Shown piece by piece: positions 347 to 58,945 of a DNA stretch of 64,000 nucleotides. The stretch covers positions 37,878,254-37,942,253 of the forward strand of contig OY482849.1 of the NCBI GenBank assembly GCA_960531495.1. Direction: 5' to 3'. The notes beneath the pieces are model-generated. The model saw only the letters and a list, made by a program, of their open reading frames with translations, ran no database searches and was not told the DNA's origin. Source of the stretch: Zeus faber. Its lineage: Eukaryota; Chordata; Actinopteri; Zeiformes; Zeidae. Each line of letters opens with the position of its first letter. Position 1 is the stretch's first letter. The translations under genes and the position numbers were made by a program.

Positions 347-997
347 TTGGTTGAGTACTGTATTGATGATCCCGTCTACCCAGTTTGGGTAGCCTGGTAT
401 GTATTGGTGAGTACTTTTCCTATGTTCCCCCCTGGCCAGCAAGGGCAGTTTGGTATAGGGGACCAAAGGTAATGCACGGGCCGTCGCACGTTATCAAGAT
501 TCTCCAATCCCGTATTATGTTAGGTAGAGAGTTAGGTTCCTGTTCAAGTTGTTGCGGATGGTTAAGAACGTTTTGTTTGTTTTTTGTTCTGGGTTTAAAC
601 GTGGTTAAATACACCTTGTTTGTTTTTGTTTCCAGTTGTTTATGGATGGTTAAGAACACCCTATTTGTTTTCTTTGGGTGTTCATTTGTTATGGGTTTAA
701 GCGTGGTTAAATAAACCTTGTTTGTTTTTGTTTCAAGTTGTTACGAATGGTTAAGATCACCTTGTTTGTTTTTTTGGTTACGGGTCTAAGCGTGGTTAGG
801 AACACCTTATTTGTTTCCGTTTCAAGTTTTTACGGATTGGTTCAGAACACCTTGTTTGTTCCTTATTACGGGTTTAAGCGTGGTTAAGTACATCTTGTTA
901 GTTTCTTGTTTAAAGTTGTTACCGATGGTAAGAAAACCTTGTTTGTTTTTCTATTTCGAGTTTAAGCGTGGTTAGGTACACCTTATTGTTTTTTTGG
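347..997 (+). repeat. Beta-family unit, truncated before segment C
   Basis: The A core (347 to about 533) is followed by the beta arm: degenerate 43-46 bp repeats alternating GTTTCAAGTTGTTACGGATGG-like and CGGGTTTAAGCGTGG-like halves, each ending in CACCTT. The unit stops in the arm and the next A core starts at once. The 109-residue open frame over the core and arm also appears in the other beta units. It reads through minisatellite DNA and I do not call it a gene. Confidence 0.8.
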
Positions 998-1724
998 TTG
1001 GTTGAGTACTGTATTGATGATCCCGTCTACCCAGTTTGGGTAGCCTGGTATGTATTGGTGAGTACTTTTCCTATGTTCCCCCTGGCCAGCAAAGGCAGTT
1101 TGGTATAGGGGACCAAAGGTAATGTACGGGCCGTCGCACGTTATCAAGATTCTCCAATCCCGTATTATGTTAGGTAGAGAGTTAGGTTCCTGTTCAAGTT
1201 GTTGCGGATGGTTAAGAACGTTTTGTTTGTTTTTTGTTCTGGGTTTAAACGTGGTTAAATACACCTTGTTTGTTTTTGTTTCCAGTTGTTTATGGATGGT
1301 TAAGAACACCCTATTTGTTTTCTTTGGGTGTTCATTTGTTATGGGTTTAAGCGTGGTTAAATAAACCTTGTTTGTTTTTGTTTCAAGTTGTTACGAATGG
1401 TTAAGATCACCTTGTTTGTTTTTTTGGTTACGGGTTTAAGCGTGGTTAGGTACACCTTATTTGTTTCTGTTTCAAGTTTTTACGGATCGGTTCAGAACAC
1501 CTTGTTTGTTCCTTATTACGGGTTTAAGCGTGGTTAAGTACATCTTGTTAGTTTCTTGTTTAAAGTTGTTACCGATGGTAAGAAAACCTTGTTTGTTTTT
1601 CTATTTCGAGTTTAAGCGTGGTTAGGTACACCTTATTGTTTTTTTGTTTCCAGTTGTTACGAATGGTTAAGCGCATCCTGTTTATTCTTTCTCCGAATTA
1701 CCATATGATTACTATTAGGAATTT
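998..1724 (+). repeat. Beta-family unit: A core and minisatellite arm
   Basis: A second adjacent beta unit, nearly identical to the previous one. Small changes in the core (one C fewer in the C run, GCAAAGGCAG, AATGTACGGG) show it has diverged. The arm runs to about 1690 and is followed by an AT-rich transition (CCATATGATTAC) that leads into segment C in every family. Confidence 0.8.
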
Positions 1725-1860
1725 AGGACACATTCATCAGTAGTGTACCTCAGGATCATTGAGTGTTTCAGCCTTTTAAACAAACTATACACCCTCTCCT
1801 TGAGGCAGGCCACCTGGGTTTGATCAAGACCCTGGTGTGTGTCCCCCGGTCAATTGGTTT
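1725..1860 (+). repeat. Conserved segment C, beta copy
   Basis: About 136 bp running from AGGACACATTCATCAG to CGGTCAATTGGTTT. The same segment occurs in alpha and beta units although their flanks differ completely, with only a few differences (for example GGGTTTGATC here and GGGCTTCGTC in the alpha array). It is the best conserved element shared by both families outside the A core. Its function is unknown. Confidence 0.8.
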
Positions 1861-3251
1861 TATTTAAAAAAAATGTGTAAGTTGGATTTCGTTGCATTTG
1901 GGTACGACCTTTATACGTTGGTAGGATATTCTTTTTCTTAGACTTTGAGTTTTTTTTGGTTAGGTTCTGTCTTTGTCATTGGGTAGTTCTTATTATGGTC
2001 ATTCGGATTTTGTTGAGTTTGGGTACGGTCTTTCTTTGTCGGTAAGATATTTCTGTCCTAGGATTCTGTTGAGTTTGGGTAAGTTTGTATCACTATTTTT
2101 TCTTAAGGTGCCTCCGGTATTATTGGTTGGACTTTGTTGAGCTTGGATAAGTTGGCTTTTAATTTATCCCAGGTACATTTCTGCTGTTGTTAGACGAGAT
2201 AGTCGAGTTTGGCTAAATTGAAATACCGTTGTTCTAACGTTATTCAAGTTGGTCGGGTTTTGGTTATTTTCTTGGGTAAGCTATCGTCTGTTTGATGATA
2301 GTTTGGTTACTTCGGTTATAATGGATAATAAGATCTGATTACGGGTATGTCTTGGGAGTAAGGATAAATTAGACCTAGTAGAGTAAGTGGTTACTGTTAT
2401 CTCCTAGGTATTATTATACAGGTTGGGTTAAAGGATGGAGATAGGTAGTTAGTTCTAAAAGGTCTAGGTCCCGGTGCATCCACGGCCTGGTCCCTAAGTT
2501 TGGACCAGGGGATGAGGAAATAAGGGTGTGAAAATTTAAATTGCTGTAAAAACAGCATTCTACTTTTAAAGGAACAATTCCTGTGTCCCGTACACCGCAC
2601 AACTCCAGGAATTGTCCAATATATCTATGTTTTTTTTAGTTTTACACCTAGAAACCTTGGATAACACTTACCCCAGCCAGGTCTTCATTATTTTATCACT
2701 TAAATTTCGTATAGGGTCTACTCGGGTTATATCTTTCACCCTCCTGGTTCCTGGGATTTTATGTTTTTAATAATGTAGTTGGGGTCCTGAATATTATATT
2801 TAGAATTTCATTAAACGATTGGTGGCATATAAATATTTTTTCGTGCAATAAAATGCGTGAAGAAATTAAAATTAAAAGTACCCATGGTTCATAGCGGTTT
2901 TTTTCGGTAGGAACGGCCGCTACTTCCTGAAGGGGAGTCTCTAGCATGATGTTCATCCTCTGATTGGTCCTCTATAATTATCCCATAATTCCTCTATTTT
3001 ATTAGTTGACTATGTTTTTGTATGTTAAATAATTTTCAATAGCCTACTGAAATTATTTTAACCAGAAAAAACATCGCGGAAGTGTTTCATTAACGTGGGG
3101 ATGTTGTAGGTTTTTTAAAAAAAAACGGTACCATGAGCGATAGCGGTAGCGCTTGTAATGACATGACAGCGGGAAAACAAAATAATCTCCGGGTGGACAA
3201 CTTCTGTCCAAAACAATCCGGTCGACAGCGAGCAACTCGCCGCCGAGAAAA
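1861..3251 (+). repeat. Beta flank D' plus X, first copy, truncated by telomere repeats
   Basis: Complex AT-rich DNA without a credible gene. Positions 1861-2577 match 6211-6928 closely, and 1861-3251 match 59082-61350 more distantly. The right-hand copy has an extra GC-rich insertion. Shared landmarks are a palindrome pair near 2573-2616, an ACCCATGGTTCATAG block near 2880 and a GGTACC...AGCGGTA block near 3125. The sequence stops at GCCGAGAAAA and telomere repeats start in the next base. Small hairpins are visible near the end (TGGACA/TGTCCA and GCGAG/CTCGC). Confidence 0.75.
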
Positions 3252-3254
3252 GGG

Positions 3255-3295
<41 letters not shown>

Positions 3296-3364
3296 GGTTA
3301 GGGTTAGGGTTAGGGTTAGGGTTAGGGGTTAGGGTTAGGGTTAGGGTTAGGGTTAGGGTTAGGG
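3252..3364 (+). repeat. Interstitial telomere tract 1 (TTAGGG)n
   Basis: About 19 TTAGGG repeats with a few length variants (one TTTAGGG, one TTAGGGG). The G-rich strand is on +, as at a right-hand chromosome end. The left junction is abrupt, in unrelated complex sequence. The right junction runs directly into the fixed A-core start at 3365. Confidence 0.97.
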
Positions 3365-4547
3365 TTGGGTGAGTACTGTATTGATGATCCCGTCTACCCA
3401 GTTTGGGTAGCCTGGTATGTATTGGTGAGTACTTTTCCTATGTTCCCCCCTGGCCAGCATGGTCAGTTTGGTATAGGGGACGAAAGGTAATGCACGGGCC
3501 GTCGCACGTTATCAAGATTCTCCAATCCCGTATTATGTTAGGTAGAGTGTTAGGTTCATGTTTTGTAGTTATCCCATTTGGGTTAAAGAATATTGGCATA
3601 TTCTGGCTTCAAGGAGAAGTCCCCTAACGAGGGTTTAAGGTGATTTAAAAGGATGCTTGTTTCCTCTTAGTAGCATAGGTCCAGAGTAATTTGTCTTATA
3701 TTTGTTGTTTAGATGCTTTATTAGTCGTTGGTAGACGTAGTTGTTTTCTTTAAGAGTGGTTAAGAACACCTTATTTGTTTTTTGTTTCAAGTTGTTTAAG
3801 AGTGGTTGAGAATACCTTATTTGTTCTTTCTCCGCATTTCTATATGATTACTTTTAGAAATTTAGGACACATTCATCAGTAGTGTACCTCAGGATCATTG
3901 AGTGTTTCAGCCTTTTAAACAAACTATACACCCTCTCCTTGAGGCAGGCCACCTGGGCTTGATCAAGACCCTGGTGTGTGTCCCCCGGTCAATTGGTTTA
4001 TTTTTAGAAAATATTTCTACTCTTGTTGGTTGGATTTTGTTGAGTTTGGGTACGACCTCTATTTGTCCATGGGATATCTATGTTCTTAGGTTTTGTTGAG
4101 TATAGGTAAGTTCCGTCTCTGTTTGTCTTTGGGAAACCTCTTCCATTTTCAATTGGATTTTGTAGAGTTTGGGTACGACCTCTATTTGTCAGTGGGATAT
4201 TTTTGTTCTTGGATTTTGTTGAGTTTGGGTACGACCTCTATTCGTCAATGGTTAGGGTTAGGATTTGGTTTTAGGGTTAGGATAAGGGTTAGGTTTAGGG
4301 CTAGGTCTTAGGGTTAACGTTAGGGTTAGGGTTAGGTTTAGAACCAGGGCTAGGCTTAGGTTTAGGGTTAGGCTAAGGGTTAGGTCTAGGGTTAGGTTTA
4401 GGGTTAAGTCTTAGGGTTAACGTTAGGGTTAGGGTTAGGTTTAGAGCTAGAGTTAGGGTTTGGGTTAGGGTCAGGGTTTTAGGATTAGGGTTGGAGAGGA
4501 GAGGGAAGTGGAGGAGAAGTATATGTAGAAGGGAGGTAGAGGGAAGG
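3365..4547 (+). repeat. Alpha unit, diverged, truncated in segment F
   Basis: A core, arm B, segment C (about 3867-4000), ~60-bp minisatellite D, degenerate telomeric E (about 4246-4490) and the first ~55 bp of purine-rich F. It ends at GGGAAGG, where a beta core begins. A 6-bp deletion in arm B (GGTGATTTAAAAGG), the GACGAAAGG change in the core and an expanded E set it apart from the array units. Confidence 0.8.
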
Positions 4548-4973
4548 TTGGTTGAGTACTGTATTGATGATCCCGTCTACCCAGTTTGGGTAGCCTGGTA
4601 TGTATTGGTGAGTACTTTTCCTATGTTCCCCCCTGGCCAGCAAGGGCAGTTTGGTATAGGGGACCAAAGGTAATGCACGGGCCGTCGCACGTTATCAAGA
4701 TTCTCCAATCCCGTATTATGTTAGGTAGAGAGTTAGGTTCCTGTTCAAGTTGTTGCGGATGGTTAAGAACGTTTTGTTTGTTTTTTGTTCTGGGTTTAAC
4801 CGTGGCAAAATACACCTTGTTGGTTTTTGTTTCAAGTTGTTATGGATGGTTAAGAACACCCTATTTGTTTTTTTTGGGTGTTCATTTGTTATGGGTTTAA
4901 GCGTGGTTAAATAAACCTTATTTGTTTTTGTTCCAAGTTGTTACGAATGGTTAAGATCACCTTGTTTGATTTG
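4548..4973 (+). repeat. Beta' unit (short)
   Basis: A core followed by a beta arm of the subtype marked TTTAACCGTGGCAAAATAC. The same subtype occurs at 55624, 56248, 56626 and 57250, and the tail at 1-149 matches it. It is followed by mini-core A', repeating the order beta', A', beta seen at the window start. Confidence 0.78.
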
Positions 4974-5170
4974 TTGAGTACTGTATTGATGATTCCGTTT
5001 ACCCAGTTGGGTATCCTGGCATGTATTGGTGAGTAATATTCCTATGTTCCCCCCTGGCCAGCATGGGCAGTTTGGTATAGGGGACCAAAGGTAATGCACG
5101 GTCTTGGTAAGATAATACATATAATGGGTTATAAGGAGAATCTGCTTTCCGAGGCACAGGCTAGGTTAGG
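4974..5170 (+). repeat. Mini-core A', second copy
   Basis: Near-identical to 150-346. One difference is GAGTAATATTCC here and GAGTACTATTCC there. It ends in GGCTAGGTTAGG against the next A-core start. Confidence 0.8.
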
Positions 5171-6074
5171 TTGGTTGAGTACTGTATTGATGATCCCGTC
5201 TACCCAGTTTGGGTAGCCTGGTATTTATTGGTGAGTACTTTTCCTATGTTCCCCCCTGGCCAGCAAGGGCAGTTTGGTATAGGGGACCAAAGGTAATGCA
5301 CGGGCCGTCGCACGTTATCAAGATTCTCCAATCCCGTATTATGTTAGGTAGAGAGTTAGGTTCCTGTTCAAGTTGTTGCGGATGGTTAAGAACGTTTTGT
5401 TTGTTTTTTGTTCTGGGTGTAAACGTGGTTAAATACACCTTGTTTGTTTTTGTTTCCAGTTGTTTATGGATGGTTAAGAACACCCTATTTGTTTTATTTG
5501 GGTGTTCATTTGTTATGGGTTTAAGCGTGGTTAAATAAACCTTGTTTGTTTTTGTTTCAAGTTGTTACGAATGGTTAAGATCACCTTGTTTGTTTTTTTG
5601 GTTACGGGTTTAAGCGTGGTTAGGTACACCTTATTTGTTTCTGTTTCAAGTTTTTACGGATTGGTTCAGAACACCTTGTTTGTTCCTTATTACGGGTTTA
5701 AGCGTGGTTAAGTACACCTTGTTAGTTCCTTGTTTAAAGTTGTTACGGATGGTTAAGATCACCTTGTTTGTTTTTTTGGTTACGGGTTTAAGCGTGGTTA
5801 GGTACACCTTATTTGTTTCTGTTTCAAGTTTTTACGGATTGGTTCAGAACACCTTGTTTGTTCCTTATTACGGGTTTAAGCGTGGTTAAGTACACCTTGT
5901 TAGTTTCTTGTTTAAAGTTGTTACGGATGGTAAGAAAACCTTGTTTGTTTTTTATTACGAGTTTAAGCCTGGTTAGGTACACCTTATTGTTTTTTGATTC
6001 AAGTTGTTACGGATGGTTAAGCGCACCCTGTTTCTTCTTTCTCTGAATTTCCATATGATTACTTTTAGGAATTT
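5171..6074 (+). repeat. Beta unit with internal 178-bp tandem duplication
   Basis: A core followed by a beta minisatellite arm. Positions around 5628-5805 are repeated with a 178-bp period around 5806-5983. That block is itself four degenerate 43-46 bp repeats, so the arm grows by steps of four repeats. The same 178-bp duplication appears at 57706-58060 and 58499-58850. Confidence 0.78.
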
Positions 6075-6210
6075 AGGACACATTCATCAGTAGTGTACCT
6101 CAGGATCATTGAGTGTTTCAGCCTTTTAAACAAACTATACACCCTCTCCTTGAGGCAGGCCACCTGGGTTTGATCAAGACCCTGGTGTGTGTCCCCCGGT
6201 CAATTGGTTT
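6075..6210 (+). repeat. Conserved segment C, second beta copy
   Basis: Same as 1725-1860 by eye, including GGGTTTGATCAAGACC. It sits between the beta arm and flank D'. Confidence 0.8.
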
Positions 6211-6928
6211 TATTTAAACAAAATTTGTAAGTTGGATTTCGTTGCATTTGGGTTCGACCTTTATACGTTGGTAGGATATTCTTTTTCTTAGACTTTGAGT
6301 TTTTTTTGGTTAGGTTCTGTCTTTGTCATTGGGTAGTTCTTACTATGGTCATTCGGATTTTGTTGAGTTTTGGGTACGGTCTTTCTTTGTCGGTAAGATA
6401 TTTCTGTCCTAGGATTCTGTTGAGTTTGGGTAAGTTTGTATCACTATTTTTTCTTAAGGTGCCTCCGGTATTATTGGTTGGACTTTGTTGAGCTTGGATA
6501 CGTTGCCTTTTAATTTATCCCAGGTACATTTCTGCTGTTGTTAGACGAGATAGTCGAGTTTGGTTAAATTGAAATACCGTTGTTCTAACGTTATTCAAGT
6601 TGGTCGGCTTTTGGTTATTTTCTTGGGTAAGCTATCGTCTGTTTGATGATAGTTTGGTTACTTCGGTTATAATGGATAATAAGATCTGATTACGGGTATG
6701 TCTTGGGAGTAAGGATAAATTAGACCTAGTAGAGTAAGTGGTTACTGTTATCTCCTAGGTATTATTATACAGGTTGGGTTAAAGGATGGAGATAGGTAGT
6801 TAGTTCTAAAAGGTCTAGGTCCCGGTGCATCCACGGCCTGGTCCCTAAGTTTGGACCAGGGGATGAGGAAATAAGGGTGTGAAAATTTAAATTGCTGTAA
6901 AAAAAGCATTCTACTTTTAAAGGAACAA
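6211..6928 (+). repeat. Beta flank D', second copy, truncated by telomere repeats
   Basis: Matches 1861-2577 with scattered single-base differences, then stops at AAAGGAACAA where TTAGGG repeats begin. In the longer copies the sequence continues AACAATTCCTG, the left arm of an inverted repeat, so the break falls inside that arm. No gene is visible. Confidence 0.8.
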
Positions 6929-7002
6929 GGGTTAGGGTTAGGGTTAGGGTTAGGGTTAGGGTTAGGGTTAGGGTTAGGGTTAGGGTTAGGTTAGGGTTAG
7001 GG

Positions 7003-7033
<31 letters not shown>

Positions 7034-7115
7034 GTTAGGGGTTAGGGGTTAGGGTTAGGGTTAGGGGTTAGGGTTAGGGTTAGGGGTTAGGGTTAGGGTT
7101 AGGGTTAGGGTTAGG
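6929..7115 (+). repeat. Interstitial telomere tract 2
   Basis: About 30 repeats, G-rich strand on +. TTAGGGG variants cluster in the middle and right part (about 7020-7090), with one shortened TTAGG unit and one TTTAGGG. It joins the A-core start at 7116. Confidence 0.97.
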
Positions 7116-8449
7116 GTGGGTGAGTACTGTATTGATGATCCCGTCTACCCAGTTTGGGTAGCCTGGTATGTATTGGTGAGTACTTTTCCTATGTTCCCCC
7201 CTGGCCAGCATGGGCAGTTTGGTATAGGGGACCAAAGGTAATGCACGGGCCGTCGCACGTTATCAAGATTCTCCAATCCCGTATTATGTTAGGTAGAGTG
7301 TTAGGTTCATGTTTTGTAGTTATCCCATTTGGGTTAAAGAATATAGGCATATTCTGGCTTCAAGGAGAAGTCCGCTAACCAGGGTTTAAGGTGACTTACA
7401 TTTAAAAGGATGCTTGTTTCCTCTTAGTAGTATAGGTCCAGAGTAATTTGTCTTATATTTGTTGTTTAGATGCTTTATTAGTCGTTGGTAGACGTAGTTG
7501 TTTTCTTTAAGAGTGGATAAGAACACCTTATTTGTTTTTTGTTTCAAGTTGTTAAGAGTGGTTGAGAATACCCTGTTTGTTTTTTTGTTTCCAGTTGTTA
7601 AGAGTGGTTAAGAACACCTTATTTGTTCTTTCTCCGCATTTCTATATGATTACTTTTAGAAATTTAGGACACATTCATCAGTAGTGTACCTCAGGATCAT
7701 TGAGTGTTTCAGCCTTTTAAACAAACTATACACCCTCTCCTTGAGGCAGGCCACCTGGGCTTGATCAAGACCCTGGTGTGTGTCCCCCGGTCAATTGGTT
7801 TATTTTAGGAAATATTTCTACTCTTGTTGGTTGGATTTTGTTGAGTTTGGGTACGACCTCTATTTGTCCGTGGGATATCTATGTTCTTAGATTTTGTTGA
7901 CTATAGGTAAGTTCCATCTCTGTTTGTCATTGGTAAACTTCTTCCATTTTCAATTGGATTTTGTAGTGTTTGGGTACGACCTCTATTTGTCAGTGGGATA
8001 TTTTTGTTCTTGGATTTTGTTGAGTTTGGGTACGACCTCTATTTGTCAATCGTTAGGGTTAGGATTTGGTTTTAGGGTTAGGATAAGGGTTAGGTTTAGG
8101 GTTAGGTTTGGGGTTAGGTTTGGGGCTAGGTCTTAGGGTTAACGTTAGGGTTAGGGTTAGGTTTAGAACCAGGGCTAGGGTTAGGTTTAGGGTTGGGCTA
8201 AGGGTTAGGTCTAGGTTTAGGTTTAGGGTTAAGTCTTAGGGTTAACATTAGGGTTAGGGTTAGGTTTAGAGCTAAAGTTAGGGTTAGGGTCAGGGTTTTA
8301 GGATAGGGTTGGAGAGGAGAGGGAAGTGGAGGAGAAGTAGATGTAGAAGGGAGGTAGAGGGAAGGAGAGCCGTCTGTTCGGACTGAATTCTCCTCCTGCC
8401 TGTTCGGGCTATTCTCTACCGTCCCAGCTCTCTCAGTTTCCTGAGAGAA
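7116..8449 (+). repeat. Alpha' unit truncated in segment F by telomere repeats
   Basis: Subtype markers are GCATGGGCAG, GTCCGCTAACCAGG, TTGACTATAGG and TCAATCGTTAGGG. The unit holds A, B, C, D and E and the first half of F. It ends one base after the right arm of the F hairpin (stem TCTCTCAG/CTGAGAGA), where GGGTTAGGG begins. In intact units this point reads AAGGGGAAG, so the junction shares AAGGG. Confidence 0.85.
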
Positions 8450-8795
8450 GGGTTAGGGTTAGGGTTAGGGTTAGGGTTAGGGGTTAGGGTTAGGGTTAGG
8501 GTTAGGGGTTAGGGTTAGGGTTAGGGTTAGGGGTTAGGGTTAGGGTTAGGGTTAGGGGTTAGGGGTTAGGGTTAGGGTTAGGGTTAGGGTTAGGGTTAGG
8601 GTTAGGGGTTAGGGTTAGGGTTAGGGTTTAGGGTTTAGGGTTAGGGTTAGGGTTAGGGTTAGGGTTCGGGTTAGGGTTAGGGTTAGGGTTCGGGTTCGGG
8701 TTAGGGTTAGGGTTAGGGTTCGGGTTAGGGTTAGGGTTAGGGTTAGGGTTAGGGTTAGGGTTCGGGTTAGGGTTAGGGTTAGGGTTAGGGTTAGG
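8450..8795 (+). repeat. Interstitial telomere tract 3 with TTCGGG variants
   Basis: The longest tract, about 58 repeats. The left half has TTAGGGG at fairly regular spacing. The right half has TTCGGG units (about 8665-8765), some adjacent, which are not seen in the other tracts. Right end joins the A-core start at 8796. Confidence 0.97.
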
Positions 8796-9202
8796 TTGGG
8801 TGAGTACTGTATTGATGATCCCGTCTACCCAGTTTGGGTAGCCTGGTATGTATTGGTGAGTACTTTTCCTATGTTCCCCCCTGGCCAGCATGGTCAGTTT
8901 GGTATAGGGGACCAAAGGTAATGCACGGGCCGTCGCACGTTATCAAGATTCTCCAATCCCGTATTATGTTAGGTAGAGTGTCAGGTTCATGTTTTGTAGT
9001 TATCCCATTTGGGTTAAAGAATATAGGCATATTCTGGCTTCAAGGAGAAGTCCCCTAACCAGGGTTTAAGGTGACTTACATTTAAAAGGATGCTTGTTTC
9101 CTCTTAGTAGTATAGGTCCAGAGTAATTTGTCTTATATTTGTTGTTTAGATGCTTTATTAGTTGTTGGTAGACGTAGTTGTTTTCTTTAAGAGTGGTTAA
9201 GA
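8796..9202 (+). repeat. Alpha'' unit, truncated in arm B
   Basis: Carries GTGTCAGGTTC, GTCCCCTAACCAGGG and TTAGTTGTTGGTAGACG, the markers of the units at 45464 and 46982. All of these lie in the same telomere-adjacent cluster. It stops in the minisatellite part of arm B at GTGGTTAAGA and is followed by a beta core. Confidence 0.8.
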
Positions 9203-10962: not shown

Positions 10963-11750
10963 TTGGGTGATTACTGTATTGATGATCCCGTCTACCCAGT
11001 TTGGGTAGCCTGGTATGTATTGGTGAGTACTTTTCCTATGTTCCCCCCTGGCCAGCAAGGGCAGTTTGGTATAGGGGACCAAAGGTAATGCACGGGCCGT
11101 CGCACGTTATCAAGATTCTCCAATCCCGTATTATGTTAGGTAGAGAGTTAGGTTCCTGTTCAAGTTGTTGCGGATGGTTAAGAACGTTTTGTTTGTTTTT
11201 TGTTCTGGGTTTAAACGTGGTTAAATACACCTTGTTTGTTTTTGTTTCCAGTTGTTTATGGATGGTTAAGAACACCCTATTTGTTTTCTTTGGGTGTTCA
11301 TTTGTTATGGGTTTAAGTGTGGTTAAATAAACCTTGTTTGTTTTTGTTTCAAGTTGTTACGAATGGTTAAGTTCACCTTGTTTGTTTTTTTGGTTACGGG
11401 TTTAAGTGTGGTTAGGTACACCTTATTTGTTTCTGTTTCAAGTTTTTACGGATTGGTTCAGAACACCTTGTTTGTTCCTTATTACGGGTTTAAGCGTGGT
11501 TAAGTACATCTTGTTAGTTTCTTGTTTAAAGTTGTTATCGATGGTAAGAAAACCTTGTTTGTTTTTCTATTTCGAGTTTAAGCGTGGTTAGGTACACCTT
11601 ATTGTTTTTTTGTTTCCAGTTGTTACGAATGGTTGAGCGCATCCTGTTTATTCTTTCTCCGAATTACCATATGATTACTATTAGAAATTTAGGACACATT
11701 CATCAGTAGTGTACCTCAGGATCATTGAGTGTTTCAGCCTTTTAAACAAA
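10963..11750 (+). repeat. Beta unit truncated inside segment C
   Basis: Nearly identical to 9203-9990 (shared GGGTTTAAGTGTGG and GTTATCGATGG markers). It therefore looks like a partial copy of the adjacent chimeric unit. It ends at TTTTAAACAAA in segment C and is capped by telomere repeats. The first core repeat reads GGGTGATTACTG instead of GAGTACTG. Confidence 0.83.
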
Positions 11751-11782
11751 GGGTTAGGGTTAGGGTTAGGGTTAGGGTTAGG
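11751..11782 (+). repeat. Interstitial telomere tract 4 (short)
   Basis: Five perfect GGGTTA repeats plus a partial one, between the truncated segment C and an A-core start. It is the shortest tract. Confidence 0.95.
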
Positions 11783-48035: not shown

Positions 48036-51000
48036 TTGGGTGAGTACTGTATTGATGATCCCGTCTACCCAGTTTGGGTAGCCTGGTATGTATTGGTGAG
48101 TACTTTTCCTATGTTCCCCCCTGGCCAGCATGGTCAGTTTGGTATAGGGGACCAAAGGTAATGCACGGGCCGTCGCACGTTATCAAGATTCTCCAATCCC
48201 GTATTATGTTAGGTAGAGTGTTAGGTTCATGTTTTGTAGTTATCCCATTTGGGTTAAAGAATATTGGCATATTCTGGCTTCAAGGAGAAGTCCCCTAACG
48301 AGGGTTTAAGGTGACTTACATTTAAAAGGATGCTTGTTTCCTCTTAGTAGTATAGGTCCAGAGTAATTTGCTTATATTTGTTGTTTAGATGCTTTATTAG
48401 TCGTTGGTAGACGTAGTTGTTTTCTTTAAGAGTGGTTAAGAACACCTTATTTGTTTTTTGTTTCAAGTTGTTAAGAGTGGTTGAGAATACCCTGTTTGTT
48501 TTTTTGTTTCCAGTTGTTAAGAGTGGTTAAGAACACCTTATTTGTTCTTTCTCCGCATTTCTATATGATTACTTTTAGAAATTTAGGACACATTCATCAG
48601 TAGTGTACCTCAGGATCATTGAGTGTTTCAGCCTTTTAAACAAACTATACACCCTCTCCTTGAGGCAGGCCACCTGGGCTTCGTCAAGACCCTGGTGTGT
48701 GTCCCCCGGTCAATTGGTTTATTTTAGGAAATATTTCTACTCTTGTTGGTTGGATTTTGTTGATTTTGGGTACGACCTCTATTTGTCCGTGGGATATCTA
48801 TGTTCTTAGATTTTGTTGAGTATAGGAAAGTTCCGTCTCTGTTTGTCATTGGGAAACTTCTTCCATTTTCAATTGGATTTTGTAGAGTTTGGGTACGACC
48901 TCTATTTGTCAGTGGGATATTTTTGTTCTTGGATTTTGTTGAGTTTGGGTACGACCTCTATTCGTCAATGGTTAGGGTTAGGATTTGGTTTTAGGGTTAG
49001 GATAAGGGTTAGGTTTAGGGTTAGGTTTGGGGTTAGGTTTAGGGCTAGGTCTTAGGGTTAACGTTAGTGTTAGGGTTAGGTTTAGAACCAGGGCTAGGCT
49101 TAGGTTTAGGGTTAGGCTAAGGGTTAGGTTTAGGGTTAAGTCTTAGGGTTAACGTTAGGGTTAGGGTTAGGTTTAGAGCTAGAGTTAGGGTTAGGGTTAG
49201 GGTCAGGGTTTTAGGATTAGGGTTGGAGAGGAGAGGGAAGTGGAGGAGAAGTATATGTAGAAGGGAGGTAGAGGGAAGGAGAGCCGTCTGTTCGGACTGC
49301 ATTCTCCTCCTGCCTGTTCGGGCTATTCTCTACCGTCCCAGCTCTCTCAGTTTCCTGAGAGAAGGGGAAGAGAGTGAGAAAAAGAATGAAAAAAGAGAAA
49401 AAAAAAATTGTAAGCTAAGTTATTTTGTATAGTTGTTAATTTATGAGAATAGACTCTAATCAATAGTTAGAAGTTGTTGTACACCTTATCTTGCGCCATG
49501 TCAATGCCTTTAAGAGGAGGAAAGAAAGGGGAGAGAGATTTGGTTAGATAATACATATAATGGGTTATAAGGAGAATCTGCTTTCCGAGGCACAGGCTAG
49601 ATTAGGTTGGGTGAGTACTGTATTGATGATCCCGTCTACCCAGTTTGGGTAGCCTGGTATGTATTGGTGAGTACTTTTCCTATGTTCCCCCCTGGCCAGC
49701 ATGGTCAGTTTGGTATAGGGGACCAAAGGTAATGCACGGGCCGTCGCACGTTATCAAGATTCTCCAATCCCGTATTATGTTAGGTAGAGTGTTAGGTTCA
49801 TGTTTTGTAGTTATCCCATTTGGGTTAAAGAATATTGGCATATTCTGGCTTCAAGGAGAAGTCCCCTAACGAGGGTTTAAGGTGACTTACATTTAAAAGG
49901 ATGCTTGTTTCCTCTTAGTAGTATAGGTCCAGAGTAATTTGCTTATATTTGTTGTTTAGATGCTTTATTAGTCGTTGGTAGACGTAGTTGTTTTCTTTAA
50001 GAGTGGTTAAGAACACCTTATTTGTTTTTTGTTTCAAGTTGTTAAGAGTGGTTGAGAATACCCTGTTTGTTTTTTTGTTTCCAGTTGTTAAGAGTGGTTA
50101 AGAACACCTTATTTGTTCTTTCTCCGCATTTCTATATGATTACTTTTAGAAATTTAGGACACATTCATCAGTAGTGTACCTCAGGATCATTGAGTGTTTC
50201 AGCCTTTTAAACAAACTATACACCCTCTCCTTGAGGCAGGCCACCTGGGCTTCGTCAAGACCCTGGTGTGTGTCCCCCGGTCAATTGGTTTATTTTAGGA
50301 AATATTTCTACTCTTGTTGGTTGGATTTTGTTGATTTTGGGTACGACCTCTATTTGTCCGTGGGATATCTATGTTCTTAGATTTTGTTGAGTATAGGAAA
50401 GTTCCGTCTCTGTTTGTCATTGGGAAACTTCTTCCATTTTCAATTGGATTTTGTAGAGTTTGGGTACGACCTCTATTTGTCAGTGGGATATTTTTGTTCT
50501 TGGATTTTGTTGAGTTTGGGTACGACCTCTATTCGTCAATGGTTAGGGTTAGGATTTGGTTTTAGGGTTAGGATAAGGGTTAGGTTTAGGGTTAGGTTTG
50601 GGGTTAGGTTTAGGGCTAGGTCTTAGGGTTAACGTTAGTGTTAGGGTTAGGTTTAGAACCAGGGCTAGGCTTAGGTTTAGGGTTAGGCTAAGGGTTAGGT
50701 TTAGGGTTAAGTCTTAGGGTTAACGTTAGGGTTAGGGTTAGGTTTAGAGCTAGAGTTAGGGTTAGGGTTAGGGTCAGGGTTTTAGGATTAGGGTTGGAGA
50801 GGAGAGGGAAGTGGAGGAGAAGTATATGTAGAAGGGAGGTAGAGGGAAGGAGAGCCGTCTGTTCGGACTGCATTCTCCTCCTGCCTGTTCGGGCTATTCT
50901 CTACCGTCCCAGCTCTCTCAGTTTCCTGAGAGAAGGGGAAGAGAGTGAGAAAAAGAATGAAAAAAGAGAAAAAAAAAATTGTAAGCTAAGTTATTTTGTA

Positions 51001-54000
51001 TAGTTGTTAATTTATGAGAATAGACTCTAATCAATAGTTAGAAGTTGTTGTACACCTTATCTTGCGCCATGTCAATGCCTTTAAGAGGAGGAAAGAAAGG
51101 GGAGAGAGATTTGGTTAGATAATACATATAATGGGTTATAAGGAGAATCTGCTTTCCGAGGCACAGGCTAGATTAGGTTGGGTGAGTACTGTATTGATGA
51201 TCCCGTCTACCCAGTTTGGGTAGCCTGGTATGTATTGGTGAGTACTTTTCCTATGTTCCCCCCTGGCCAGCATGGTCAGTTTGGTATAGGGGACCAAAGG
51301 TAATGCACGGGCCGTCGCACGTTATCAAGATTCTCCAATCCCGTATTATGTTAGGTAGAGTGTTAGGTTCATGTTTTGTAGTTATCCCATTTGGGTTAAA
51401 GAATATTGGCATATTCTGGCTTCAAGGAGAAGTCCCCTAACGAGGGTTTAAGGTGACTTACATTTAAAAGGATGCTTGTTTCCTCTTAGTAGTATAGGTC
51501 CAGAGTAATTTGCTTATATTTGTTGTTTAGATGCTTTATTAGTCGTTGGTAGACGTAGTTGTTTTCTTTAAGAGTGGTTAAGAACACCTTATTTGTTTTT
51601 TGTTTCAAGTTGTTAAGAGTGGTTGAGAATACCCTGTTTGTTTTTTTGTTTCCAGTTGTTAAGAGTGGTTAAGAACACCTTATTTGTTCTTTCTCCGCAT
51701 TTCTATATGATTACTTTTAGAAATTTAGGACACATTCATCAGTAGTGTACCTCAGGATCATTGAGTGTTTCAGCCTTTTAAACAAACTATACACCCTCTC
51801 CTTGAGGCAGGCCACCTGGGCTTCGTCAAGACCCTGGTGTGTGTCCCCCGGTCAATTGGTTTATTTTAGGAAATATTTCTACTCTTGTTGGTTGGATTTT
51901 GTTGATTTTGGGTACGACCTCTATTTGTCCGTGGGATATCTATGTTCTTAGATTTTGTTGAGTATAGGAAAGTTCCGTCTCTGTTTGTCATTGGGAAACT
52001 TCTTCCATTTTCAATTGGATTTTGTAGAGTTTGGGTACGACCTCTATTTGTCAGTGGGATATTTTTGTTCTTGGATTTTGTTGAGTTTGGGTACGACCTC
52101 TATTCGTCAATGGTTAGGGTTAGGATTTGGTTTTAGGGTTAGGATAAGGGTTAGGTTTAGGGTTAGGTTTGGGGTTAGGTTTAGGGCTAGGTCTTAGGGT
52201 TAACGTTAGTGTTAGGGTTAGGTTTAGAACCAGGGCTAGGCTTAGGTTTAGGGTTAGGCTAAGGGTTAGGTTTAGGGTTAAGTCTTAGGGTTAACGTTAG
52301 GGTTAGGGTTAGGTTTAGAGCTAGAGTTAGGGTTAGGGTTAGGGTCAGGGTTTTAGGATTAGGGTTGGAGAGGAGAGGGAAGTGGAGGAGAAGTATATGT
52401 AGAAGGGAGGTAGAGGGAAGGAGAGCCGTCTGTTCGGACTGCATTCTCCTCCTGCCTGTTCGGGCTATTCTCTACCGTCCCAGCTCTCTCAGTTTCCTGA
52501 GAGAAGGGGAAGAGAGTGAGAAAAAGAATGAAAAAAGAGAAAAAAAAAAATTGTAAGCTAAGTTATTTTGTATAGTTGTTAATTTATGAGAATAGACTCT
52601 AATCAATAGTTAGAAGTTGTTGTACACCTTATCTTGCGCCATGTCAATGCCTTTAAGAGGAGGAAAGAAAGGGGAGAGAGATTTGGTTAGATAATACATA
52701 TAATGGGTTATAAGGAGAATCTGCTTTCCGAGGCACAGGCTAGATTAGGTTGGGTGAGTACTGTATTGATGATCCCGTCTACCCAGTTTGGGTAGCCTGG
52801 TATGTATTGGTGAGTACTTTTCCTATGTTCCCCCCTGGCCAGCATGGTCAGTTTGGTATAGGGGACCAAAGGTAATGCACGGGCCGTCGCACGTTATCAA
52901 GATTCTCCAATCCCGTATTATGTTAGGTAGAGTGTTAGGTTCATGTTTTGTAGTTATCCCATTTGGGTTAAAGAATATTGGCATATTCTGGCTTCAAGGA
53001 GAAGTCCCCTAACGAGGGTTTAAGGTGACTTACATTTAAAAGGATGCTTGTTTCCTCTTAGTAGTATAGGTCCAGAGTAATTTGCTTATATTTGTTGTTT
53101 AGATGCTTTATTAGTCGTTGGTAGACGTAGTTGTTTTCTTTTAGAGTGGTTAAGAACACCTTATTTGTTTTTTGTTTCAAGTTGTTAAGAGTGGTTGAGA
53201 ATACCCTGTTTGTTTTTTTGTTTCCAGTTGTTAAGAGTGGTTAAGAACACCTTATTTGTTCTTTCTCCGCATTTCTATATGATTACTTTTAGAAATTTAG
53301 GACACATTCATCAGTAGTGTACCTCAGGATCATTGAGTGTTTCAGCCTTTTAAACAAACTATACACCCTCTCCTTGAGGCAGGCCACCTGGGCTTCGTCA
53401 AGACCCTGGTGTGTGTCCCCCGGTCAATTGGTTTATTTTAGGAAATATTTCTACTCTTGTTGGTTGGATTTTGTTGATTTTGGGTACGACCTCTATTTGT
53501 CCGTGGGATATCTATGTTCTTAGATTTTGTTGAGTATAGGAAAGTTCCGTCTCTGTTTGTCATTGGGAAACTTCTTCCATTTTCAATTGGATTTTGTAGA
53601 GTTTGGGTACGACCTCTATTTGTCAGTGGGATATTTTTGTTCTTGGATTTTGTTGAGTTTGGGTACGACCTCTATTCGTCAATGGTTAGGGTTAGGATTT
53701 GGTTTTAGGGTTAGGATAAGGGTTAGGTTTAGGGTTAGGTTTGGGGTTAGGTTTAGGGCTAGGTCTTAGGGTTAACGTTAGTGTTAGGGTTAGGTTTAGA
53801 ACCAGGGCTAGGCTTAGGTTTAGGGTTAGGCTAAGGGTTAGGTTTAGGGTTAAGTCTTAGGGTTAACGTTAGGGTTAGGGTTAGGTTTAGAGCTAGAGTT
53901 AGGGTTAGGGTTAGGGTCAGGGTTTTAGGATTAGGGTTGGAGAGGAGAGGGAAGTGGAGGAGAAGTATATGTAGAAGGGAGGTAGAGGGAAGGAGAGCCG

Positions 54001-54322
54001 TCTGTTCGGACTGCATTCTCCTCCTGCCTGTTCGGGCTATTCTCTACCGTCCCAGCTCTCTCAGTTTCCTGAGAGAAGGGGAAGAGAGTGAGAAAAAGAA
54101 TGAAAAAAGAGAAAAAAAAAAAATTGTAAGCTAAGTTATTTTGTATAGTTGTTAATTTATGAGAATAGACTCTAATCAATAGTTAGAAGTTGTTGTACAC
54201 CTTATCTTGCGCCATGTCAATGCCTTTAAGAGGAGGAAAGAAAGGGGAGAGAGATTTGGTTAGATAATACATATAATGGGTTATAAGGAGAATCTGCTTT
54301 CCGAGGCACAGGCTAGATTAGG
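48036..54322 (+). repeat. Second alpha array: four full units
   Basis: Starts at 48036, 49607, 51178 and 52750. Poly(A) lengths are 10, 10, 11 and 12, which fully accounts for unit lengths of 1,571, 1,571, 1,572 and 1,573. The first three read TTTCTTTAAGAGTGG, whereas unit four and the large array read TTTCTTTTAGAGTGG. The fourth unit is therefore closer to the large array than to its own neighbours. Confidence 0.93.
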
Positions 54323-55623
54323 TTGGGTGAGTACTGTATTGATGATCCCGTCTACCCAGTTTGGGTAGCCTGGTATGTATTGGTGAGTACTTTTCCTATG
54401 TTCCCCCCTGGCCAGCATGGGCAGTTTGGTATAGGGGACCAAAGGTAATGCACGGGCCGTCGCACGTTATCAAGATTCTCCAATCCCGTATTATGTTAGG
54501 TAGAGTGTTAGGTTCATGTTTTGTAGTTATCCCATTTGGGTTAAAGAATATAGGCATATTCTGGCTTCAAGGAGAAGTCCGCTAACCAGGGTTTAAGGTG
54601 ACTTACATTTAAAAGGATGCTTGTTTCCTCTTAGTAGTATAGGTCCAGAGTAATTTGTCTTATATTTGTTGTTTAGATGCTTTATTAGTCGTTGGTAGAC
54701 GTAGTTGTTTTCTTTAAGAGTGGTTAAGAACACCTTATTTGTTTTTTGTTTCAAGTTGTTAAGAGTGGTTGAGAATACCCTGTTTGTTTTTTTGTTTCCA
54801 GTTGTTAAGAGTGGTTAAGAACACCTTATTTGTTCTTTCTCCGCATTTCTATATGATTACTTTTAGAAATTTAGGACACATTCATCAGTAGTGTACCTCA
54901 GGATCATTGAGTGTTTCAGCCTTTTAAACAAACTATACACCCTCTCCTTGAGGCAGGCCACCTGGGCTTCGTCAAGACCCTGGTGTGTGTCCCCCGGTCA
55001 ATTGGTTTATTTTAGGAAATATTTCTACTCTTGTTGGTTGGATTTTGTTGAGTTTGGGTACGACCTCTATTTGTCTGTGGGATATCTATGTTCTTAGATT
55101 TTGTTGACTATAGGTAAGTTCCATCTCTGTTTGTCATTGGTAAACTTCTTCCATTTTCAATTGGATTTTGTAGTGTTTGGGTACGACCTCTATTTGTCAG
55201 TGGGATATTTTTGTTCTTGGATTTTGTTGAGTTTGGGTACGACCTCTATTTGTCAATCGTTAGGGTTAGGATTTGGTTTTAGGGTTAGGATAAGGGTTAG
55301 GTTTAGGGTTAGGTTTGGGGTTAGGTTTGGGGCTAGGTCTTAGGGTTAACGTTAGGGTTAGGGTTAGGTTTAGAACCAGGGCTAGGGTTAGGTTTAGGGT
55401 TGGGCTAAGGGTTAGGTCTAGGGTTAGGTTTAGGGTTAAGTCTTAGGGTTAACATTAGGGTTAGGGTTAGGTTTAGAGCTAAAGTTAGGGTTAGGGTCAG
55501 GGTTTTAGGATAGGTTTGGAGAGGAGAGGGAAGTGGAGGAGAAGTAGATGTAGAAGGGAGGTAGAGGGAAGGAGAGCCGTCTGTTCGGACTGAATTCTCC
55601 TCCTGCCTGTTCGGGCGGTTGGG
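54323..55623 (+). repeat. Alpha' unit truncated in F
   Basis: Alpha' markers again (GTCCGCTAACC, TTGACTATAGG, TCAATCGTTAGG), so alpha' flanks the homogeneous arrays on both sides. The unit is cut after CCTGTTCGGGC at about 55616. A short GGTTGGG linker leads into a beta core. Confidence 0.85.
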
Positions 55624-57624
55624 TTGGTTGAGTACTGTATTGATGATCCCGTCTACCCAGTTTGGGTAGCCTGGTATGTATTGGCGAGTACTTTTCCTAT
55701 GTTCCCCCCTGGCCAGCAAGGGCAGTTTGGTATAGGGGACCAAAGGTAATGCACGGGCCGTCGCACGTTATCAAGATTCTCCAATCCCGTATTATGTTAG
55801 GTAGAGAGTTAGGTTCCTGTTCAGGTTGTTGCGGATGGTCAAGAACGTTTTGTTTGTTTTTTTGTTCTGGGTTTAACCGTGGCAAAATACACCTTGTTGG
55901 TTTTTGTTTCAAGTTGTTATGGATGGTTAAGAACACCCTATTTGTTTTTTTTGGGTGTTCATTTGTTATGGGTTTAAGAGTGGTTAAACAAACCTTATTT
56001 GTTTTTGTTCCAAGTTGTTACGAATGGTTAAGATCACCTTGTTTGATTTGTTGAGTACTGTATTGATGATTCCGTTTACCCAGTTGGGTATCCTGGCATG
56101 TATTGGTGAGTAATATTCCTATGTTCCCCCCTGGCCAGCATGGGCAGTTTGGTATAGGGGACCAAAGGTAATGTACGGTCTTGGTAAGATAATACATGTA
56201 ATGGGTTATGAGGAGAATCTGCTTTCCGAGGCACAGGCTAGGTTAGGTTGGTTGAGTACTGTATTGATGATCCCGTCTACCCCGTTTGGGTAGCCTGGTA
56301 TGTATTGGTGAGTACTTTTCCCATGTTCCCCCCTGGCCAGCAAGGGCAGTTTGGTATAGGGGACCAAAGGTAATGCACGGGCCGTCGCACGTTATCAAGA
56401 TTCTCCAATCCCGTATTATGTTAGGTAGAGAGTTAGGTTCCTGTTCAAGTTGTTGCGGATGGTTAAGAACGTTTTGTTTGTTTTTTGTTCTGGGTTTAAC
56501 CGTGGCAAAATACACCTTGTTGGTTTTTGTTTCAAGTTGTTATGGATGGTTAAGAACACCCTATTTGTTTTATTTGGGTGTTCATTTGTTATGGGTTTAA
56601 GCGTGGTTAAATAAACCTTGTTAAGTTGGTTGAGTACTGTATTGATGATCCCGTCTACCCAGTTTGGGTAGCCTGGTATGTATTGGCGAGTACTTTTCCT
56701 ATGTTCCCCCCTGGCCAGCAAGGGCAGTTTGGTATAGGGGACCAAAGGTAATGCACGGGCCGTCGCACGTTATCAAGATTCTCCAATCCCGTATTATGTT
56801 AGGTAGAGAGTTAGGTTCCTGTTCAGGTTGTTGCGGATGGTCAAGAACGTTTTGTTTGTTTTTTTGTTCTGGGTTTAACCGTGGCAAAATACACCTTGTT
56901 GGTTTTTGTTTCAAGTTGTTATGGATGGTTAAGAACACCCTATTTGTTTTTTTTGGGTGTTCATTTGTTATGGGTTTAAGAGTGGTTAAACAAACCTTAT
57001 TTGTTTTTGTTCCAAGTTGTTACGAATGGTTAAGATCACCTTGTTTGATTTGTTGAGTACTGTATTGATGATTCCGTTTACCCAGTTGGGTATCCTGGCA
57101 TGTATTGGTGAGTAATATTCCTATGTTCCCCCCTGGCCAGCATGGGCAGTTTGGTATAGGGGACCAAAGGTAATGTACGGTCTTGGTAAGATAATACATG
57201 TAATGGGTTATGAGGAGAATCTGCTTTCCGAGGCACAGGCTAGGTTAGGTTGGTTGAGTACTGTATTGATGATCCCGTCTACCCCGTTTGGGTAGCCTGG
57301 TATGTATTGGTGAGTACTTTTCCCATGTTCCCCCCTGGCCAGCAAGGGCAGTTTGGTATAGGGGACCAAAGGTAATGCACGGGCCGTCGCACGTTATCAA
57401 GATTCTCCAATCCCGTATTATGTTAGGTAGAGAGTTAGGTTCCTGTTCAAGTTGTTGCGGATGGTTAAGAACGTTTTGTTTGTTTTTTGTTCTGGGTTTA
57501 ACCGTGGCAAAATACACCTTGTTGGTTTTTGTTTCAAGTTGTTATGGATGGTTAAGAACACCCTATTTGTTTTATTTGGGTGTTCATTTGTTATGGGTTT
57601 AAGCGTGGTTAAATAAACCTTGTT
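55624..57624 (+). repeat. 1,002-bp tandem duplication of a beta'-A'-beta' cassette
   Basis: Positions 55624-56622 and 56626-57624 carry the same cassette: beta' unit, mini-core A' (about 56050 and 57052), beta' unit. They share rare variants, such as CAGGTTGTTGCGGATGGTC, CTACCCCGTTTGGG and TAATACATGTAATGGG, and look identical by eye. The first copy ends CCTTGTT with AAG before the second core, while the second continues into a longer arm. Confidence 0.87.
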
Positions 57625-58040
57625 TGTTTTTGTTTCAAGTTGTTACGAATGGTTAAGATCACCTTGTTTGTTTTTTTGGTTACGGGTTTAAGCGTGGTTA
57701 GGTACACCTTATTTGTTTCTGTTTCAAGTTTTTACGGATTGGTTCAGAACACCTTGTTTGTTCCTTATTACGGGTTTAAGCGTGGTTAAGTACACCTTGT
57801 TAGTTTCTTGTTTAAAGTTGTTACGGATGGTTAAGATCACCTTGTTTGTTTTTTTGGTTACGGGTTTAAGCGTGGTTAGGTACACCTTATTTGTTTCTGT
57901 TTCAAGTTTTTACGGATTGGTTCAGAACACCTTGTTTGTTCCTTATTACGGGTTTAAGCGTGGTTAAGTACACCTTGTTAGTTTCTTGTTTAAAGTTGTT
58001 ACGGATGGTAAGAAAACCTTGTTTGTTTTTTATTATTAGG
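57625..58040 (+). repeat. Beta minisatellite arm with 178-bp duplication, cut short
   Basis: Continuation of the beta' unit that starts at 57250. The ~44-bp repeats include the 178-bp tandem duplication (period seen between about 57713 and 57891). The arm ends TTTTTTATTATTAGG against the next A core. An open frame of 172 residues runs across this joint only because no stop happens to lie there. Confidence 0.75.
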
Positions 58041-58945
58041 TTGGTTGAGTACTGTATTGATGATCCCGTCTACCCAGTTTGGGTAGCCTGGTATGTATTG
58101 GTGAGTACTTTTTCCTATGTTCCCCCCTGGCCAGCAAGGGCAGTTTGGTATAGGGGACCAAAGGTAATGCACGGGCCGTCGCACGTTATCAAGATTCTCC
58201 AATCCCGTATTATGTTAGGTAGAGAGTTAGGTTCCTGTTCAAGTTGTTGCGGATGGTTAAGAACGTTTTGTTTGTTTTTTGTTCTGGGTTTAAACGTGGT
58301 TAAATACACCTTGTTTGTTTTTGTTTCCAGTTGTTTATGGATGGTTAAGAACACCCTATTTGTTTTCTTTGGGTGTTCATTTGTTATGGGTTTAAGCGTG
58401 GTTAAATAAACTTTGTTTGTTTTTGTTTCAAGTTGTTACGAATGGTTAAGATCACCTTGTTTGTTTTTTTGGTTACGGGTTTAAGCATGGTTAGGTACAC
58501 CTTATTTGTTTCTGTTTCAAGTTTTTACGGATTGGTTCAGAACACCTTGTTTGTTCCTTATTACGGGTTTAAGCGTGGTTAAGTACACCTTGTTAGTTTC
58601 TTGTTTAAAGTTGTTACGGATGGTTAAGATCGCCTTGTTTGTTTTTTTGGTTACGGGTTTAAGCGTGGTTAGGTACACCTTATTTGTTTCTGTTTCAAGT
58701 TTTTACGGATTGGTTCAGAACACCTTGTTTGTTCCTTATTGCGGGTTTAAGCGTGGTTAAGTACACCTTGTTAGTTTCTTGTTTAAAGTTGTTACGGATG
58801 GTACGAAAACCTTGTTTGTTTTTTATTACGAGTTTAAGCGTGGTTAGGTACACCTTATTGTTTTTTGATTCAAGTTGTTACGGATGGTTAAGTGTACCCT
58901 GTTTCTTCTTTCTCTTAATTTCCGTATGATTACTTTTAGGAATTT
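58041..58945 (+). repeat. Beta unit leading into the rightmost C and flank
   Basis: A core plus minisatellite arm, again with the 178-bp duplication (about 58506 and 58684). It corresponds to the units at 998 and 5171 and leads into C with the AT-rich transition CCGTATGATTAC. Confidence 0.8.

Follow-up and report, generated by a model that had tools for sequence, protein, structure and literature searches.

The window, the 64,000-nucleotide stretch of Zeus faber DNA analysed here, lies in a subtelomere of contig C5, the end of which is 41 kb away. It carries a non-coding repeat family that has probably spread by recombination at telomere-like DNA. The sequence points to this through the orientation of the units, their truncation bias, the telomeric caps, the TTAGGG resemblance at direct junctions, variant telomeric repeats common to core-proximal tracts, multi-unit blocks common to different chromosomes and a genomic match to a telomerase domain. 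The preliminary description had proposed that units accrete at chromosome ends on an RNA template. Accretion is borne out: growth is toward the telomere, the inner edge is fixed, the outer edges vary, and truncated units are capped by TTAGGG repeats. The RNA template has lost ground, given the variant repeats that precede the core in 10 of the 27 tracts, TTAGGG-like direct junctions and two blocks that moved whole, and recombination of DNA is the more likely source.

Organization of the window

All features lie on the + strand. A half-core of 201 bp (149..349), consisting of core 1-130 fused to tail 1518-1587 of the G unit, is one of many copies and recurs at 4973, 56050 and 57052. It is followed by a beta-type unit (350..997) that runs to beta 646 and is joined directly to the next core, and by a long beta unit (1001..3250) ending in GAGAAAA at B 2427 (right edge 3251). 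There an internal TTAGGG tract begins (3251..3366), with a TTAGGGG variant close to the core. The next G-type unit (3368..4547) extends to about G 1247, again with a direct join to the following core. Block D (3850..4010; about 150 bp, limits set by eye) is 90-100% conserved between the G and B/Lb families, whereas the adjoining arms are 55-80% alike.

The composite B1 - half-core - B2 (4551..6927) has its right edge at B 1754 (6928) and precedes an internal TTAGGG tract (6928..7117) in which TTAGGGG variants are clustered. The G-type unit at 7119..8448 is cut at G 1334 (8449), and the TTAGGG tract beyond it (8449..8795) starts at the GGG of the truncated unit. Another G-type unit (8799..9202) stops at G 404 in the direct join GGTTAAGA / TTGGGTGAG. 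The segment 9206..11749 comprises a unit with a homologous switch from beta to G and a unit ending within block D; this edge (11750) was placed by eye, and the automatic match ends sooner, at beta 694. After a short TTAGGG tract (11750..11782) comes a G array of period 1572-1595 (11786..45224) with its final unit cut at G 371 (45226), then a further TTAGGG tract (45225..45463) and G units (45467..55616) with truncations at G 1097 (48035) and G 1291 (55616). Two composites (55627..58040) are cut at B 373, joined via AA, and at B 784, joined via TTAG (58040, beta 784). Lb, the longest beta unit (58044..62430), is followed by a telomeric tract (62439..63569), degenerate and then perfect, ahead of a core at 63570.

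The inner edge of the units

The core start has 48 matches in the window, four of them half-cores. All are on the + strand and none on the − strand, and in the orientation survey every core faced the contig end. More than forty cores had been described as starting from one point. The count stands, but forty cores are not forty events because the full-length G units, 102 of the 176 units in our wider sample, represent a single tail-to-core junction amplified in tandem. The window cores have about 16 different left contexts.

The wider sample covers nine ends, the left ends of C1, C3, C7 and C21 and the right ends of C2, C4, C5, C10 and C17; the left end of C5 (20 kb) lies outside it and is without a core. 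Each unit follows one of three reference elements, and copies are head-to-tail with no reversed core at any of the nine ends. Relatives of one flank segment from this family occur on nine other contigs. All 176 units start at reference position 1-4, which is partly by construction since units were delimited at core starts, and three contain unread letters and are not judgeable along their whole length. The decisive test for left truncation is whether a later segment within a unit, preceded by foreign sequence or by a telomeric tract, starts partway into the element. Of 32 extra segments picked out, 18 were colinear, 11 were switches and 3 were of other kinds. In our reading they comprise arm deletions, places where the G and B families switch by homology, a single LINE insertion, the half-core and telomere-like matches. 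No clear left-truncated copy was found among the 176 units.

The left edge is apparently not a single base. In 20 distinct direct junctions the copied sequence begins 4-17 nt upstream of GAGTACTG, and at junctions that bear a tract copying appears to begin within the telomeric repeats. By eye, a candidate polyadenylation-like word, AATACA (− strand), and a candidate 5' splice-site-like word, GTGAGT (+ strand), are seen near the core start.

The outer edges of the units

All eleven right edges named for the window in the preliminary description were located where it had placed them, each at its own point of an element. The fixed inner and variable outer geometry holds for the wider sample, where right ends fall into 40 bins of 4 nt. 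Six bins are full-length, reference or composite ends, leaving about 34 truncation bins. Genome-wide counts drop from left to right, with 1,576 for the core start, 1,525 for the core end and 1,333 for block D, these being approximate because matching was exact. On C7, where the core is cut at 111, and on C3 and C1 the terminal unit runs straight into a TTAGGG cap, and elsewhere telomeric repeats come after the end of a truncated unit, though not in every case. A terminal break removes the distal side alone, so the bias to right truncation can be explained without a reverse transcriptase.

Telomeric tracts and direct junctions

Many units are flanked by telomere-like repeats of the same orientation, and others are joined directly. 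Internal TTAGGG tracts pointing to the telomere are found at block boundaries. We compared 27 tracts left of a core, excluding position 58 of C2, which is cut by the start of the piece; they are not all independent, three C3 tracts having one left context in common. Ten contain TTAGGGG variants 3-9 repeats from the core (within 90 nt; 29 occurrences), and 17 lack them. No such variant occurs in about 3,730 repeats from three caps (C7, C3, C1) and a single inner tract some 8 kb long. The ten variant-bearing tracts have ten different sequences further left. Since similar variant clusters lie by the core despite differing left sequence, it seems that telomeric DNA was copied along with the core. 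Counting against such co-copying, variants may accumulate in old internal tracts on their own.

The set of 20 direct junctions leaves out C5R 48042 (in telomere-like sequence), C3L 12213 (after a unit tail) and the tail-to-core classes. At these tract-free junctions the last 8 nt of the truncated units resemble TTAGGG in register. Bases 1-8 to the left of the break give 78 in-register matches, against 42.8 ± 6.2 expected (z = 5.7). The resemblance is weaker once the bases closest to the break are omitted (z = 4.4 for bases 3-8, 2.7 for 4-9 and −0.1 for 9-16, with breaks set by eye). Break points set by script agreed with those set by eye in 17 of 20 cases; the script value of 22 for C3L 12001 seems to have been misled by a T run. 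Script-set breaks gave z = 5.1, 3.6, 2.5 and 0.3 for the same four windows, and 4.2, 2.9, 1.9 and −0.5 after removal of two junctions that are telomere-like on the left in any case. Several direct junctions have short overlaps or small insertions. The one or two extra bases at some joins (AA, A, C) are not accounted for by homology, and on C17 a short stub resembling one core start stands before another core start.

Blocks common to different chromosomes

In a filtered list of blocks of at least 1,500 bases, two multi-unit blocks with older junctions inside are nearly identical between chromosomes: C5 56620-60431 with C17 (99.63%) and C7 26218-29757 with C10 (99.46%). The left limits of both lie 7-12 nt ahead of a core. 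They appear to have been transferred whole between chromosomes. The Lb unit is 99.3% identical to a stretch of C2, and its left part (to 60431) falls within the block that is 99.6% identical to C17. A 13-kb block common to C5 and C1 was dropped as proof of transfer, since the full units of C1 (1580-1581 bp) may be locally amplified.

Coding content

No convincing coding frame was found in the stretches examined, including Lb, and the 166-aa frame at 60055 has no Pfam family match up to E = 1. Inspection by eye of a 6.2-kb unit on C10 as a potential coding source element gave no convincing reading frame. The reverse transcriptase in one array is that of an ordinary dispersed LINE, the sole LINE family seen in the arrays. 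Stop-free LINE reverse transcriptase frames are abundant in the genome, which also has a Telomerase_RBD match (E = 3.7e-34) at C1:28.96 Mb, interrupted by a single stop. Rfam gave no match in the window at gathering score. At relaxed E-value, 3300-4560 gave two weak matches (E = 1.6 and 4.4), which we take as chance. A 5S- or tRNA-derived core was rejected, as neither family is among these relaxed matches (one unit) and ARAGORN found none in the window. Helitron-like one-ended transposition was considered from end motifs and set aside.

A possible mechanism and its alternatives

We propose that the terminal unit would lose its distal part by breakage or erosion, generating the variable right edge. 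The new end would be capped with TTAGGG repeats, or would retain a 3' end that resembles TTAGGG by chance. This telomere-like 3' end could then pair with a (TTAGGG)n-core junction elsewhere, in another unit or on another chromosome, and be extended by copying outward from the donor junction, i.e. break-induced replication. The core start would look fixed because telomere homology in the donors stops there, and unequal exchange would subsequently amplify some junctions in tandem. Break-induced replication is the likely enzymology, with telomerase the presumed capping enzyme. Some observations sit less easily with recombination, among them the many distinct left contexts without a full telomeric tract and the narrow join window (4-17 nt). 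Co-copied variants and a preference for telomere-like primers would also be expected of an RNA template with CCCTAA repeats at the 3' end.

Target-primed reverse transcription seems to us unlikely. Here the template would be a − strand RNA whose end lies at the core start or slightly beyond it and may carry CCCTAA repeats. A LINE, Penelope-like or telomerase enzyme would copy it onto an uncapped chromosome 3' end, the right edges reflecting incomplete copying. The geometry fits, as do very short units (G 61, 64, 77 and 111), the small extra bases at some direct joins and the C17 stub, and the LINE frames could supply an enzyme. Yet the TCTTGAA-type tail of the array LINE is unlike the core, the examined stretches show no convincing coding frame, and blocks with older junctions move whole. 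Variant repeats seem to move with the core; as their clusters lie left of it in ten contexts, copying seems not to begin at a core-start RNA end. Similar marks would be expected from an RNA that carries CCCTAA repeats at the 3' end, so that RNA templating is weakened only. Just as doubtful is a non-autonomous vertebrate telomeric retroelement. Its − strand RNA would continue at the 3' end past the core start into CCCTAA repeats, a LINE or telomerase enzyme would copy this RNA onto telomere-like 3' ends, and many chromosome ends would have RNA-templated accretion alongside telomerase.

Terminal translocation by end joining has been proposed for human subtelomeres. The telomere-like core start would be a hotspot of breakage, with distal fragments ligated to other broken ends. 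The small insertions, short overlaps and distal blocks common to chromosomes are consistent with this, but plain end joining does not predict a broken left end that is TTAGGG-like in register, and all 20 joins would require a break in one short stretch. We regard it as improbable. Less probable still is that an old tandem array changed by unequal crossing-over and slippage alone, with right-side deletions arising by chance, or that the pattern is an assembly artefact: one amplified junction accounts for most units, long arrays assemble poorly and a misjoin could explain the inner telomeric tract (about 8 kb) on C1, but the number of truncation bins with no clear left-truncated copy, the foreign left contexts on several ends and the recurrence of the same junctions on different chromosomes all stand against it.

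The arrays can probably be read as a record of earlier damage and repair at chromosome ends: each right edge marks the loss of an end, and the tracts and telomere-like joins hint at how it was rescued. End rebuilding by recombination has mostly been studied in survivors and tumours; its frequency in telomerase-bearing animals could be asked from assembled genomes alone. Common telomeric variants by the core offer a simple test of DNA copying against RNA-templated attachment in other species.

Comparison with known systems

HeT-A/TART and Penelope-like elements have a fixed inner end, and encode reverse transcriptase or borrow that of a partner. HeT-A/TART and endonuclease-deficient Penelope-like elements are described as attached to chromosome ends, the latter with a truncated outer end followed by telomeric repeats (PMC3846280, PMC5537684). 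The units here share with HeT-A/TART and Athena-type elements the fixed inner end, the variable outer truncation and the telomeric repeats after truncated ends. They differ in that no reverse transcriptase tied to the core was found in the units examined or the array LINE, and in that telomeric DNA to the left of the core seems to have been copied together with it.

The proposed process belongs to a known kind, that of TALTs, Y' elements and human duplicons. The yeast Y' element is a subtelomeric tandem unit with telomeric tracts between copies, and encodes a helicase. Our units have a similar arrangement, but no coding unit was found. Y' elements are named in PMC7889907. Human subtelomeric duplicons are reported to have internal (TTAGGG)n at block boundaries, usually telomere-oriented, with some boundaries tractless; many are large, and some have genes (PMC2323237). 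Telomere-oriented tracts and tractless boundaries are likewise found here, but with short non-coding units that have one common start.

The closest descriptions are of TALT1 and TALT2 of C. elegans and mTALT of mouse, a non-telomeric block with telomere-like flanks in one orientation, which is tandem at chromosome ends, spreads via telomere recombination and comes mainly from telomerase-negative survivors or single strain arrays (PMC4595603, PMC9066243, PMC7889907). Among titles and abstract openings we found no account of such arrays in fish, though one may exist in print. The family described here resembles TALTs in its same-orientation telomere-like flanks and tandem head-to-tail copies at several chromosome ends, and both TALTs and Y' in that telomeric repeats are probably co-copied with the unit, as the variants near the core suggest. 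It differs from TALTs in occupying many ends of a genome with a telomerase domain match, and in its extensive right truncation.

Location and composition of the arrays

The assembly comprises 803 Mb in 153 contigs. The window (C5:37878254-37942253) ends 41 kb before the end of C5, a contig of 37,983,157 bases. Every core found faces outward toward the near contig end, and TTAGGG reads the same way. The exact core start occurs 1,576 times genome-wide; the 100 matches listed are all confined to the outermost ~110 kb of contigs C1-C4 and face outward. Among these 100 matches, C1, C2 and C3 carry exact core copies at one end only. No core was seen in the left 20 kb of C5 either. On this basis the arrays may be confined to one arm of each chromosome. 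C1 also has a Telomerase_RBD match (E 3.7e-34, with one stop within the matched stretch), which points to a putative telomerase gene.

A core of about 195 bp is common to the two main unit families, G and B/Lb. Units of the G family are tandem and about 1,470-1,700 bp long (1,572-1,595 bp in the window's array); B/Lb units reach several kb and also occur as a composite, B1 - half-core - B2. The arms of G differ from those of B or Lb by 20-45%, whereas the cores are 95-98% alike. Block D (window 3850-4010 and copies, about 150 bp) is 90-100% conserved between the families, its neighbouring arms being 55-80% alike, and may be a promoter, an insulator or a conversion patch. The unit stretches examined yielded no convincing coding frame.

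Edges of the units

The preliminary description held that many cores start at one point while right edges vary, and read this as possible RNA-templated end accretion. At nine contig ends 176/176 units start at reference position 1-4. Since units were cut at core starts before this count, the informative part is that no clear left-truncated copy occurs among 32 extra segments flagged inside the 176 units, three of which hold unread letters. These segments represent deletions in the arms, homologous switches between G and B, an inserted LINE, the half-core deletion and telomere-like matches. The cores are not as many separate instances: one tail-to-core junction recurs in 102 of the 176 units, all of them full-length G, and the window's cores have about 16 left contexts. 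Right ends fall into 40 bins, of which six correspond to ends that are full-length, reference or composite, and all 11 right edges named earlier were correct. Exact marker counts genome-wide fall from left to right (core start 1,576, core end 1,525, block D 1,333).

Telomeric variants, shared blocks and reverse transcriptase

Had units been attached at the core start, each telomeric tract to the left would belong to the recipient and differ between events. In 10 of the 27 tracts, TTAGGGG variants occur no more than 90 nt from the core (29 occurrences, the nearest 3-9 repeats away). Left of the tract, all ten have different sequence, including long-unit ends, G-unit ends, a LINE and DNA outside the family. 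About 3,730 repeats contain no such variant: three caps (C7, C3, C1) together with the 8-kb inner tract of C1 minus its last 100 nt. This is most plainly read as copying of donor telomeric repeats together with the core. Several points count against co-copying: seventeen of the 27 tracts are variant-free, the tracts are not fully independent of one another, the repeat number between variant and core varies, and older internal tracts may gather variants by themselves.

The inner tract at the left end of C1 is nearly perfect TTAGGG of telomere length (about 8 kb) before a nine-core array, reflecting either addition onto a full telomere or an assembly misjoin. In L030, a piece of C4, two 64-bp cores follow in succession (356-640), each with about a dozen telomeric repeats after it.

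Two segments of 3.5-3.8 kb, each with several units and older junctions inside, are shared between ends: C5 56620-60431 with C17 (99.63%) and C7 26218-29757 with C10 (99.46%). C5 and C2 also have one long unit in common (C5 58035-63562; 99.33% over 5.5 kb). The left limits of shared blocks lie 7-12 nt before a core, and their left contexts differ. The multi-unit blocks imply that the template was a pre-existing array stretch, either in DNA form or as a long array transcript. The variant repeats left of the core in 10/27 tracts, most plainly read as co-copied, weigh against RNA-templated attachment, which we consider unlikely.

In the reverse TRANSCRIPTASE test, L019 (a piece of C3, about 520-2810, - strand) held a LINE fragment inside a core, with a 602-aa open frame matching RVT_1 (E 1.1e-26). 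The insertion lies near core position 142 and is flanked on each side by ACGT. The LINE 3' tail is TCTTGAA-type, unlike the core start, and copies of the family are scattered genome-wide (73 scored of 23,108 candidates). No partner with a 3' end matching the core was found in the LINE family seen in the arrays. A second copy, 5'-truncated and reversed, lies at the base of the C21 array (L034, about 270-2600); its 5' end abuts TTAGGG with nothing between, a structure that either a healed break or a LINE attaching to an open end would give.

Direct junctions

At 20 distinct junctions lacking a tract, the join to unit sequence falls 4-17 nt before GAGTACTG. Truncated units end in bases that match TTAGGG in register with the donor leader: with break points set by eye, bases 1-8 give 78 matches against 42.8 +- 6.2 expected (z 5.7), with z 4.4 without the last two bases, 2.7 for bases 4-9 and -0.1 for bases 9-16. 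Break points set afterwards by script were the same in 17/20 and gave z 5.1, 3.6, 2.5 and 0.3 respectively, or 4.2, 2.9, 1.9 and -0.5 once two junctions with an inherently telomere-like left side were removed. Broken 3' ends like telomeric sequence were thus favoured, the effect being confined to the last ~8 bases. Some joins have AA, A or C added, or no overlap, and pairing explains none of these. End joining at a break hotspot we judge improbable. In L031 (a piece of C17, about 1240-1270) a stub like a core start (TTGGGTGAG) immediately precedes a further core start, as though copying had aborted and begun again.

Proposed mechanism

Truncated units run straight into telomeric repeats at C7 (core cut at 111), C3 and C1. 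Right truncation would follow from the loss of a terminal piece, with no need for an enzyme preference. A 3' end that is telomeric or resembles a telomere could then pair with a donor TTAGGG-core junction, from which copying would proceed outward. Pairing with outward copying would explain the fixed left edge, the shared variants and the shared blocks, and terminal loss followed by these two steps is probably how the arrays arose. Array slippage or artefact is very unlikely.

Relation to known systems

Endonuclease-deficient Penelope-like elements are described as being added at exposed ends and followed by telomeric repeats (PMC3846280). They share the outline of the present units, but in the units and the LINE family examined we found no linked reverse transcriptase or single-base start. 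Human subtelomeres are reported to have internal TTAGGG tracts, usually telomere-oriented, at block boundaries, those without tracts being attributed to loss or decay (PMC2323237). TALT units are described as genomic blocks with telomere-like repeats on their flanks, duplicated to ends (PMC4595603); a wild strain of C. elegans acquired one such copy, through telomere-repeat homology as its authors suppose (PMC9066243). The subtelomeric element mTALT is described as lying head to tail with telomeric repeats (PMC7889907). Beside these systems, the Zeus faber arrays are of interest as a rich natural record.
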